From the NCBI GenBank assembly GCA_030530285.1, contig JAUMVD010000018.1, forward strand, positions 1-32,112: a stretch of DNA of 32,112 bases, in the 5' to 3' direction. The notes beneath the pieces were generated by a model. That model was not told where the DNA came from and ran no database searches. It saw only the letters and a program-made list of their open reading frames with translations. Of this stretch, positions 4,683-17,300 are shown one piece after another. Both the position numbers and the translations under genes were made by a program. This DNA comes from Bacillota bacterium (GTDB taxonomy: Bacteria > Bacillota > Clostridia > Peptostreptococcales > Anaerovoracaceae). Within the stretch, counting starts at the first letter, position 1; each line of letters begins with the position of its first letter.

Positions 4683-6070
4683 AGAAATGTGATGTCCTCA
4701 TTATCGGCGCAGGGCCCGGAGGTCTTGCCGCCGCGGAGGGAGCAAAAAAATATGGAGCGGGGCGTGTTATCGTTTTGGAACGGGACAGCCGCCCGGGCGG
4801 GATACTGAATCAGTGCATCCATGACGGATTCGGGCTGGTCAGATACAATAGCCAGCTCACGGGGCCGGAGTACGCCATCCGGGCGGTCCGGGAGGCCTTG
4901 ACAGAAGGCGCAGAAATCCTCACCAGCCGCCATGTGATCAGCATCGCGAAAGCAAAGGCAGAAGATGCAGCTGATCCCGGGTTCATGGCAACATGTATCA
5001 GCGAAGAGGGGCTGGAAGAAATCTACGCCAAGGCCATCGTCATGGCTACGGGATGCCGCGAGAGGACGAGAGGCGCCATATCGATTCCGGGATCAAGACC
5101 TGCAGGCGTGTTTACTGCGGGAGTCGTGCAGAACTTCGTGAACCTCAGGAATATCATGCCCGGCAATAAAGTCGTCATCCTCGGATCCGGAGATGTGGGC
5201 ATGATCATGGCCAGAAGACTCAGCCTGGAAGGGGCACAGGTCAAGGCTGTCATCGAAATCATGCCGCAGCCGGCAGGGCTTGCCAGAAACGTGAGCCAGT
5301 GCATCTATGATTACGGCATACCGCTTTACTGCGGACACACCGTGTCGAAGATCAACGGCAGCAAGAGGCTGACCTCCGTTGAAGTATCAGAGCTTGACGG
5401 GAAGATGAGACCTGTCCCCGGAACAGAGCAGGTGATAGAATGCGACACTCTGGTGATATCGGCGGGGCTGATCCCCGAAAACGAAGTGGCGAAAACCATC
5501 GACATCGCGCTTGATGAGAAGACAAACGGCGTGATCACGGATTCCTTCCTGCAGACCAGCGTGCCGGGGATCTTTTCTTGCGGCAACTCCAGAAAGATAC
5601 TGGATCTTGCGGATTTCGTGTCGGAGCAGGGTGAAGCGGCCGGATCCAATGCAGCTGCCTTTGCGCTGGGAAGGGAGCTGAGTGTGTGGCAGGAAACACC
5701 GGGATCATCCATGGAAAAGGGCTATCCGCAGGAAGGCGTAGTGACGTGCATCTTTTGCCCGAAGGGCTGCAGCGGACCATATCAATGCAGCAGAGGCGAG
5801 GAATTCGCCAGGAGAGAAAAGACGGATCCCGTGAGATTTCTGACCACTACCGTCAGGGTGTCCGGCTATGAGGCGAAGCTTCTGGCGGTGAGATCACAGC
5901 GGCCGGTCCTGAAGCGGGATATGAAGATGATCATAGGCGCTCTGGCGGAGGTATCGGTTGATGCACCGGTAAACTGCGGTGATGAAATCGCCCGGCTCAC
6001 AGCAAGCGACGGAGAGGAGATCAGAATCATCGCATCAGGCAGCACAGAGGGATTGCCTTTGAAGGTGTGA
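4679..6070 (+). CDS. GlpB-like NAD(P)/FAD oxidoreductase fused to a DUF1667 domain
   Basis: 463 residues. Residues 1-345 form a pyridine nucleotide-disulfide-type flavoprotein: FAD motif VLIIGAGPGGLAAAEGAKKY, VMATGCRER at about 122, a second nucleotide site VVILGSGDVGMIMARRL at about 165-181, and SVPGIFSCGNSRK. From about residue 352 comes a DUF1667 domain with TCIFCPKGC (Cys357, Cys360, Cys364), then QCSRGEEFARREKTDPVRF, the cysteine pattern of that family. In many Clostridia DUF1667 is a separate third gene after the GlpA- and GlpB-like genes; here it is the same frame with no stop. The start ATG 4679 overlaps the previous stop and begins MKKCDVLIIG; the longer open frame back to 4448 is a shadow of the upstream gene. 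It probably accepts electrons from the GlpA-like protein. Confidence 0.85.
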   Translation: MKKCDVLIIGAGPGGLAAAEGAKKYGAGRVIVLERDSRPGGILNQCIHDGFGLVRYNSQLTGPEYAIRAVREALTEGAEILTSRHVISIAKAKAEDAADPGFMATCISEEGLEEIYAKAIVMATGCRERTRGAISIPGSRPAGVFTAGVVQNFVNLRNIMPGNKVVILGSGDVGMIMARRLSLEGAQVKAVIEIMPQPAGLARNVSQCIYDYGIPLYCGHTVSKINGSKRLTSVEVSELDGKMRPVPGTEQVIECDTLVISAGLIPENEVAKTIDIALDEKTNGVITDSFLQTSVPGIFSCGNSRKILDLADFVSEQGEAAGSNAAAFALGRELSVWQETPGSSMEKGYPQEGVVTCIFCPKGCSGPYQCSRGEEFARREKTDPVRFLTTTVRVSGYEAKLLAVRSQRPVLKRDMKMIIGALAEVSVDAPVNCGDEIARLTASDGEEIRIIASGSTEGLPLKV

Positions 6071-6082
6071 ATTTGGTATAAT
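6053..6082 (+). promoter_or_regulatory. Promoter for the thioesterase-methionine genes
   Basis: TTGCCT (6053-6058), an 18-bp spacer, and an extended -10 TGGTATAAT (6074-6082). It straddles the stop codon of the upstream oxidoreductase (6068-6070). A start near 6089 excludes the ATG at 6088 as the thioesterase start. Confidence 0.65.
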
Positions 6083-6123
6083 CTCTTATGTGTAATCAGT
6101 TGGAGCCATTGATGGAGGATGAT

Positions 6124-6600
6124 ATGGCGAATAAAAATAAACAAATCGATTTTGAAGAAAACGTAAAGAAAATTATCAGCGAGATCAAGGGATACGGATT
6201 CGGCATGCTCAACGACATGATCGATCCGCAGTTTGTAGATTGTGATCCGGAGAGGATGTCCTGCCGTGTCAGATATAAGAAATTCAAGTGGGAAGACAAC
6301 GGCAGAGGCGAAGTCCACGGCGGAGTGATTTCGGCCATGATGGACACCACCATGGGAATCAATGCCATCGCGCTGACCACAGACAGCGTATCCACCGCGG
6401 ATATGACCATCAGTTTTTTGCGGTCGTTTGTCGGCAAGTCATTTATCGTGGAATCAGAAGCCGTCCAGGTGGGAAGCCGAGTCATCCGACTCATGGCAAA
6501 GGCTTATGATGAGGATACGGGCAAATGCCTGGCCATGTCCACAGGCAGTTTCATGCATGTAGATTACGAGCATACGCAGGGAAAGCAGCTCGGAGTATAG
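6124..6600 (+). CDS. PaaI-type hotdog-fold thioesterase
   Basis: 158 residues of a single hotdog domain. The signature is GEVHGGVISAMMDTTMGINA, in which the HGG loop and the following Asp (MMD) form the acyl-thioesterase active site of the PaaI/YbgC-like group. It probably hydrolyses an acyl-CoA; the acyl chain is not predictable. ATG 6124 is chosen because GGAGG lies six bases upstream and because the promoter -10 abuts the alternative ATG at 6088. The next gene starts 17 bases after the stop, so it shares a transcript with the methionine genes, with no clear functional link. Confidence 0.85.
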   Translation: MANKNKQIDFEENVKKIISEIKGYGFGMLNDMIDPQFVDCDPERMSCRVRYKKFKWEDNGRGEVHGGVISAMMDTTMGINAIALTTDSVSTADMTISFLRSFVGKSFIVESEAVQVGSRVIRLMAKAYDEDTGKCLAMSTGSFMHVDYEHTQGKQLGV

Positions 6601-6617
6601 ATTTAGGAGGAAATGGA

Positions 6618-7910
6618 ATGAAGAACAAGGGATTCGAAACAAGATGCGTTCACGGTGCGTACAAGGCAGAGAGCGGACAGCCGCAGAACCTGCCGATCGT
6701 ACAGAGCACCACTTATAGATATTACAATGCCCAGGACGTGGCGGCGCTTTTTGATCTGGACAGCGCGACACCGTTTTATGCCAGACTGGGGAGCCCTACC
6801 GTTGACGCCTTTGAGCAGAAGATGGCGCTTCTGGAGTGCGGCAGCGCCGGCATGGCCACATCATCCGGCCAGGCGGCAAATCTGATTGCCGTGCTGAACA
6901 TCGCTGAAGCGGGAGACCACATCTTAAGCGGTACGAATATCTATGGCGGAACATACAATCTGTTCGACGTGACCCTCAGGAAACTGGGCATCGATGTAGA
7001 ATTCTTTGATCAGGATATATCCGAAGAAGAAATCATCGCTCTGGCAAGGCCAAACACCAAGGCCATTTTCGGAGAGACTCTGGGGAATCCGGCACTGAGC
7101 GTTCTGGATATCGAGAAATTCGCAAAGGCCGCGCACACCATCGGCGTTCCGCTGATCGTGGATAATACGCTGGCCACTCCGGCGCTTTGCAGACCGATCG
7201 AATTCGGAGCCGATATCGTCACACACTCCACGACGAAATTCGCTGATGGACATGGAACCAGCGTAGGCGGATGCGTCGTAGAGAGCGGCAAGTTCGACTG
7301 GACAGTAAAGGATGCCGACGGCAACCTGAAGTTCCCGAGCATGGCGGCGCCTGACGAGAGCTACCACGGCCTGAACTTTTATGAGAAGTTTGGAGAGATG
7401 GCATTTTGCGTCAGACTGAAGACCGTCCTCATCAGGGATCTGGGATGCACCATGTCGCCGATGAACGCGTACCTGACGCATCAGGGTCTGCAGACACTGG
7501 ACGTCAGAATGGAAAGACACGTCAAGAACGCCAAGGCCGTAGCGGAATTCCTGGCAAATCACCCTAAGGTTGACTGGATCATCTATCCGGGTCTTCCGGG
7601 AGACAAATACTACGATCTGGCGCAGAAATACATGCCTAAGGGCGCCAGCGCAGTCATGAGCTTCGGCGTCAAGGGCGGCAGAGCTGCCGGCGAAAAGCTG
7701 CTGGAGAATCTGGAACTGGCCAGCGTGGTCGTACATGTAGGCGACATACACACCAGCGTTCTGCATCCTGCCAGCACCACTCACAGACAGCTTTCTGAGG
7801 AAGCCCAGAAAGCGGCAGGCATCGATCCGGGTCTCATCAGACTTTCGGTAGGACTTGAAACAGTAGATGATATCATCGCGGATTTCGATCAGGCGCTGGC
7901 AAAGATCTGA
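6618..7910 (+). CDS. metY: O-acetylhomoserine sulfhydrylase (aminocarboxypropyltransferase)
   Basis: 430 residues, the normal length for the PLP-dependent Cys/Met metabolism family, MetY branch. It joins O-acetylhomoserine and sulfide (or a thiol) to give homocysteine. Visible motifs: YARLGSPTVDAFEQKMALLE for substrate and cofactor binding, SSGQAANLIAVL, ETLGNPALSVLDI, VDNTLATPALCRP, and the PLP lysine Lys207 in THSTTKFADGHGT. AGGAGG seven bases before ATG 6618 sets the start. It sits next to a MetA whose active-site residue predicts acetyl transfer, which supports O-acetylhomoserine as substrate. Related gamma-lyases have similar motifs, so some lyase activity cannot be excluded. No SAM riboswitch is visible upstream. 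Confidence 0.9.
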   Translation: MKNKGFETRCVHGAYKAESGQPQNLPIVQSTTYRYYNAQDVAALFDLDSATPFYARLGSPTVDAFEQKMALLECGSAGMATSSGQAANLIAVLNIAEAGDHILSGTNIYGGTYNLFDVTLRKLGIDVEFFDQDISEEEIIALARPNTKAIFGETLGNPALSVLDIEKFAKAAHTIGVPLIVDNTLATPALCRPIEFGADIVTHSTTKFADGHGTSVGGCVVESGKFDWTVKDADGNLKFPSMAAPDESYHGLNFYEKFGEMAFCVRLKTVLIRDLGCTMSPMNAYLTHQGLQTLDVRMERHVKNAKAVAEFLANHPKVDWIIYPGLPGDKYYDLAQKYMPKGASAVMSFGVKGGRAAGEKLLENLELASVVVHVGDIHTSVLHPASTTHRQLSEEAQKAAGIDPGLIRLSVGLETVDDIIADFDQALAKI

Positions 7911-16998: not shown

Positions 16999-17029
16999 AA
17001 AGCGGCGTTCGCATGAACGCCGCTTTTTT
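16999..17029 (+). terminator. Strong intrinsic terminator of the EtfBA operon
   Basis: AAGCGGCGTTC (17000-17010) pairs with GAACGCCGCTT (17015-17025) around a GCAT loop, followed by a run of T (17024-17029). Confidence 0.95.
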
Positions 17030-17035
17030 AATGCA

Positions 17036-17279
17036 GGTGGGGTTTTTATGACAGTGGTTTTTTTCATGTCAGCGGCCCATTGATCCATTATAGTCGCGTT
17101 TTCCACCGATAGCTCAGATATTTGCTTAATCCGGTGTAGTAAATTTGCCAAACCCCACCAGATAGACTCTGAAATAGTCCTGAGAGGTGTAGTTTATCAA
17201 GGATTGTCGTGTCGGTCAGCTTTTGAACTACACCAAAAAAGTCCGCAGCCGGCCTGTTTAAGAAAAATCGGTGGAAAAC
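17036..17279. repeat. Array of short motifs in alternating orientation, non-coding
   Basis: The 315-base gap between the etf terminator and maf has no gene. It holds seven related 8-10 bp motifs of the type AAACyaCACC/GGTGtrGTTT that alternate in direction: GGTGGGGTTT (17036), GTTTTCCACC (17098), GGTGTAGT (17133), AAACCCCACC (17150), GGTGTAGTTT (17186), GAACTACACC (17225) and GGTGGAAAAC (17270). Exact inverted pairs are 17036-17045 with 17150-17159, 17098-17110 with 17267-17279 (13 bp), and 17186-17194 with 17226-17234. Two segments starting at 17103 and 17155 are also imperfect direct repeats (CCACC, GATAG, CTC, then GGTGTAGT). No target-site duplication is evident. Confidence 0.7.
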
Positions 17280-17300
17280 ACCATATTATTACTATATTGC

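Follow-up and report, generated by a model that had tools for sequence, protein, structure and literature searches.

The cluster of alternating short motifs in the window (that is, the whole 32,112-nucleotide stretch analysed here, positions 1 to 32,112 of the forward strand of contig JAUMVD010000018.1 in the Anaerovoracaceae assembly GCA_030530285.1) is one copy of a gene-free interspersed element of about 186 bp, bounded in the window at 17095-17281, and a profile search recovered 21 full-length copies of this unit in the 2.06-Mb host genome (E<=1.2e-25). The family is lineage-specific, non-coding and interspersed, and its copies share six short sites at fixed positions, not the sequence between these sites. 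We favor, at about even odds (a probability of roughly 0.5), the hypothesis that the unit is an interspersed element that assembles a nucleoprotein complex, analogous to, but not a member of, the REPIN and BIME repeats. The unit looks like the landing platform of a DNA-binding machine, which probably also spreads the element. The parts of the window copy and the two features on its left are as follows:

17004-17031, plus strand: intrinsic-terminator-like hairpin and T run of the upstream gene, directly left of the unit (from the sequence)
17036-17045, plus strand: seventh GGTG motif, outside the six-site unit and peculiar to the window copy
17095-17281, plus strand: full six-site unit copy (profile match, E=3e-30)
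17098-17110, minus strand: site 1 (GTTTTCCACCGAT), left terminal inverted repeat, of the same type as site 6 (column conservation, 20 copies)
17132-17144, plus strand: site 2 (CGGTGTAGTAAAT; CACC-to-GGTG offset of 29 in 20 of 20 copies)
17150-17160, minus strand: site 3 (AAACCCCACCA; offset of 52 in 20 of 20 copies)
17185-17196, plus strand: site 4 (AGGTGTAGTTTA; offset of 81 or 82)
17225-17238, minus strand: site 5 (GAACTACACCAAAA; 45 bp beyond site 4 in 20 of 20 copies)
17267-17279, plus strand: site 6 (ATCGGTGGAAAAC), right terminal inverted repeat (83-85 bp beyond site 4)

The first-pass annotation had described seven motifs in strict alternation, and GGTG/CACC motifs are indeed found at 17036, 17104, 17133, 17156, 17186, 17231 and 17270; however, the repeated unit comprises six of them, with no counterpart of the 17036 motif found at the equivalent place in the other copies. 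The three exact inverted pairs it reported are evident in the sequence (GGTGGGGTTT/AAACCCCACC, 13 bp around TTTTCCACCGAT/ATCGGTGGAAAA, and GGTGTAGTT/AACTACACC), and the first two do cross, but since the 17036 motif lies outside the unit, the window copy alone has the 10-bp pair and the crossing "pseudoknot". The suggestion that two 50-base direct repeats reflect growth by duplication did not hold, as the spacers show no duplication and the repeats are apparent because sites 1-2 and 3-4 share a 52-bp spacing.

A DNA similarity search with the motif region returned 5 places in the host genome, the query itself among them, and these short matches, together with pattern searches, exposed the six-site unit. 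The four-site spacing pattern matched the host genome 16 times forward and 14 times in reverse, vs. no match for a control pattern, and the further copies that the first-pass annotation had proposed to look for do exist; a chance cluster, which would need none, is rejected. Almost only the positions of the sites are conserved, and hence similarity search yields few copies while the position pattern and the profile (built from 20 copies, which the alignment statistics below likewise cover) yield 21. Beyond these and their reverse-strand echoes, the profile found a single weak partial match in the host (C65:64-189), whose draft assembly comprises 84 contigs at 92% completeness and is the one genome of its species. 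The four-site pattern was absent from 99 relatives (48 congeners and 51 further genomes), and a family-wide profile search of 198 genomes, with 13 candidates per genome scored, gave, apart from the host, one further copy, in a metagenome-assembled genome of another genus (G105; JAUMVF010000124.1). Its contig (L044), 3.8 kb long, carries prophage genes, and the copy could be a binning error. No copy was found elsewhere among 85k species genomes. A phage or plasmid origin was rejected, with no match in viral contigs and none in plasmids, where the search was at the DNA level and would overlook copies near saturation. Likewise, no complete array of the same architecture with another core word was found in 216 kb of loci from relatives, mostly congeneric, where one four-site match with ATAG lacked sites 5 and 6.

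The architecture of the unit is close to invariant. Site orientation is -,+,-,+,-,+ and site offsets are 0/29/52/81-82/126-127/165-166 in all 20 aligned copies, giving the formula CACC-25-GGTG-19-CACC-25/26-GGTG-41-CACC-34/35-GGTG (the last gap is 36 in one copy if the three 1-bp variants are counted), with each spacer at most 1 bp off its usual length. The sites are about 12 bp long and consist of a GGTG core, invariant across all six, followed mostly by K-A-G-T or G-A-A-A-A; core columns carry near 2 bits of information and most spacer columns near 0. Site types are alike in pairs, i.e., 1 and 6 (ATCGGTGGAAAACG), 2 and 5 (GGTGKAGT), and 3 and 4 (GGTGGRRTTT), and the unit is therefore a nested palindrome of site types. 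Its right arm exceeds the left by 10 bp (sites 5-6 vs. 1-2) and 22 bp (sites 4-5 vs. 2-3), or about one and two helical turns, and like-oriented sites are 52, 52.5, 74.5 and 84 bp apart, corresponding to 4.95, 5.0, 7.1 and 8.0 turns at 10.5 bp per turn. Like-oriented sites thus share one face of the helix, and a complex bound to them would occupy a single side of the DNA duplex; few independent distances lie behind this phasing, which is support rather than proof. The protein-binding array, one of several options that the first-pass annotation had listed, is the best supported of them, based on the fixed spacing, the helical phasing and the random spacers, with spacing and phasing as indirect evidence of protein binding.

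In contrast to the sites, the spacers are close to random. Mean spacer identity between the 20 copies is 29% vs. 25% expected, with one exceptional pair at 89%, and the spread of identities is greater than in column shuffles (p=0.001), which indicates that the copies are related by descent, albeit nearly saturated. The neighbouring genes share about 71-92% nucleotide identity with those of congeners; hence, neutral DNA had time to saturate within the lineage. At such divergence, many indels would be expected over the roughly 110 spacer positions (our own estimate); no spacer in the 20 copies deviates by more than 1 bp from its usual length. Each copy thus appears to have been constrained, in place or while being copied, for its sites and their spacing and not for spacer sequence. 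Sites and spacing kept amid free spacers are the strangest property of the family, and one that a plain MITE leaves unexplained. Ordinary dead copies of a mobile element would be expected to lose their sites as fast as their spacers and to leave fragments behind; intact sites, with the C65 match as the single weak partial, indicate that selection acts on individual copies where they lie, which leaves room for a host function.

The family has spread, as seen from two loci that are empty in congeners and one duplicated pair of copies. At the etfA-maf locus, congener G017 keeps the gene order, and its intergenic region lacks the unit and is about 270 bp shorter based on alignment blocks; at the ADDB_N locus (L079), both G017 and G007 lack the unit and are about 245-260 bp shorter, with conserved flanking genes. 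The gain exceeds the unit length at both, and therefore flanking sequence arrived with the unit or grew afterwards. The duplicated pair (L082 and L084) occupies unrelated loci, and its similarity covers the unit, extends about 40 bp into the left flank and ends just right of site 6. Given that 0 of 48 congeners carry copies, the unit was probably gained at both empty loci in the host lineage, with loss in the congeners the strict alternative. Other large imperfect palindromic insertions occupy the same position 3' of etfA in congeners G047 and G008 (L140 and L144) and share words such as GTCCTCGTCGCGGAC and CTCCTGCGGAA, which suggests that this site is filled by different intergenic repeat families in different species.

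The flanks of the unit are also unusual. Direct repeats (score >=10) occur within 100 bp of the units in 57% of flanks (24 of 42) vs. 4% of windows of other host intergenic DNA (4 of 107; p=1.2e-12) and 15 of 480 mixed windows. Their periods range from 10 to 61 bp, mostly 10-28, and their sequence differs from copy to copy. In three flanks (L035 left, L038 right and L027 right) the repeats contain the unit's own end and so postdate its arrival. Among the control intergenic regions, the sole one with direct repeats of at least 11 is on host contig C75 (L190, ~5300-7000; three windows).

Under the favored hypothesis, a putative multimeric DNA-binding protein would grip the six sites on the intact double helix and fold the element into one nucleoprotein complex, in the manner of a transpososome or resolvosome on its site array. 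A recombinase acting in trans would recognise this complex and spread the element between genes, copies being kept or copied solely if all six sites are in register, while the loaded complex might repeatedly cause breaks, nicks or stalled forks, which would account for the short tandem duplications at its borders. That the units lie among mostly housekeeping genes, by Pfam, counts in favor of this hypothesis. Against it, the searches described below found neither a transposase or autonomous relative sharing the unit's ends nor a target-site duplication, and the intact sites noted above also speak for a host function. Several oriented, helically phased sites for a single recombinase at fixed spacing are found at the ends of Mu and Tn7 and in Tn3 res. 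Such transpososome and resolvase arrays, however, belong to gene-bearing elements, at their ends or in their interior, whereas the array here is the entire element. We would tentatively go further, and suggest that the unit may represent a new class of interspersed bacterial element, in which the whole element is a docking array that is selected copy by copy and whose machine leaves tandem duplications next to it.

Alternatively, the units might be chromosomal sites for a fixed nucleoprotein structure serving the host (e.g., in chromosome organisation, in topologically insulating transcription units from one another, or as targets of a regulator), selected in place and with duplication incidental. 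We consider this rather doubtful, but it is the main rival, and the data do not fully separate mobility from host function. Sites and spacing kept against near-saturated spacers, and 21 full copies besides one weak partial, fit this alternative. So does the genomic setting: the units lie between genes, near gene ends or terminators (by eye, an intrinsic-terminator-like hairpin stands left of most copies), and, again by eye, no locus with both neighbours readable is a divergent gene pair. On the other hand, absence from all 48 congeners, with the G105 copy as the only one in the family sample, would be unusual for a role in the host chromosome, and the two congener-empty loci and the recently duplicated pair also speak against it.

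The MITE- or REP-like nature that the first-pass annotation had also considered is supported as far as dispersal is concerned (empty sites, a duplicated pair), but two hallmarks of REPs are missing, namely a palindromic unit and, in the assembly, a Y1/RAYT-type gene. If the unit were a classical MITE derived from a DDE transposon, sites 1 and 6 would be its terminal inverted repeats (imperfect, 12-13 bp), and this would account for a short, non-coding, dispersed element with empty sites. Yet we found no target-site duplication at the units (mean shared word of 3.7 vs. 3.7 in mismatched flanks) and no transposase beside the units examined (Pfam). Further, the four internal sites are as strict as the ends, and they are intact while the spacers are saturated. 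Hence, we regard a MITE as unlikely. For a cognate autonomous transposon, the scan covered a subset of transposase families in an incomplete assembly, and none with the unit's ends was seen among the extra terminal-motif matches inspected.

Slightly worse placed, and improbable in our view, is that the units are REP-type repeats, mobilised by a Y1 (RAYT) transposase that works on hairpins of single-stranded DNA. BIMEs are arrays of REP sequences in alternating orientation (PMC2817692), and the unit resembles them in its evenly spaced, alternating extragenic motifs; REPINs are paired inverted REP sequences in Pseudomonas (PMC3116915), and the unit resembles them in its inverted conserved ends at a fixed distance, its less conserved spacer, and its extragenic, dispersed and lineage-specific occurrence. 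A GTAG within GGTGTAGT also fits. However, a REPIN has two sites while the unit has six, and BIMEs are palindromic REP arrays of variable length as opposed to one fixed six-site unit per locus with near-random spacers; each REP is an imperfect palindrome of 20-40 bp, whereas the consensus of every site here is a non-palindromic ~12-mer. Copies number 21, as opposed to more than 100, and, beyond shuffles, the nested fold shows none of the compensatory changes found in the hairpin of a REPIN spacer (below). Finally, PF01797 (Y1_Tnp) had no match in the 92% complete host assembly or in G105, although positive controls matched and two congeners without the unit carry one; RAYT-driven movement was rejected accordingly, with a gene in the missing portion of the assembly, where the cognate protein may also be encoded, as the residual possibility.

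The least probable alternative is a structured RNA, or a cruciform or pseudoknot acting by base pairing, which the first-pass annotation had raised and which we rejected on covariation and the absence of an Rfam match to the unit. The sites complement one another, folds predicted from single sequences pair site 1 with 6 and site 4 with 5, and the helix of sites 1 and 6 (6-17/174-185) is paired in 84% of cells. Nonetheless, in the nested fold (1-6, 2-3, 4-5), paired cells amounted to 79.5% vs. 78.8% in shuffles and the covariation score, 0.083 vs. 0.076, was within the shuffle range. The alternative fold (1-2, 3-4, 5-6) showed a slight excess, which 15 to 27 of 500 shuffles reached, depending on the measure, and which can be obtained from the relatedness of the sequences by itself. 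The RNAalifold covariation term was about 0 (0.18 kcal/mol), the site pairs contain mismatches in many copies (e.g., GGTGGGG opposite CTACACC), and the loci have no common transcription context. Pairing variants act as independent sites, and their lack of covariation beyond shuffles in the nested fold is evidence against an RNA or cruciform function.

Our literature search for such an architecture returned REP and REPIN work and nothing matching. Known short bacterial interspersed repeats were recognised through sequence similarity or hairpins, and "position-only" elements may be common yet overlooked. Identification of the putative binding protein would uncover either a novel route of DNA mobility or a novel system that structures chromosomes, and its action should be readable from the tandem duplications beside the unit.

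A few observations on individual loci are also worth reporting. A 290-aa protein (P0001; L083:1772-2644, C22:10745-11614) is encoded between two units, shows PD-(D/E)XK-like signature residues by eye and matches no Pfam or NCBIfam family. Its relatives are multi-copy, with 6 in the host genome and up to 11 in most congeners; being common in congeners that lack the unit, they do not favor P0001 as the cognate enzyme. The small contig from G105 (L044:1-3846) encodes a tRNA-Ser, a tyrosine integrase, two helix-turn-helix repressor-like genes and a portal-like fragment near the unit. Both this contig (~3330-3420) and host contig C29 just past its unit (L012) carry GAACAGTCCAMCGGACTGTTC followed by the tRNA 3'-end-like GGGTTCGARTCCC; ARAGORN called no tRNA there, and the stretch is possibly a tRNA-derived remnant or an attachment site.
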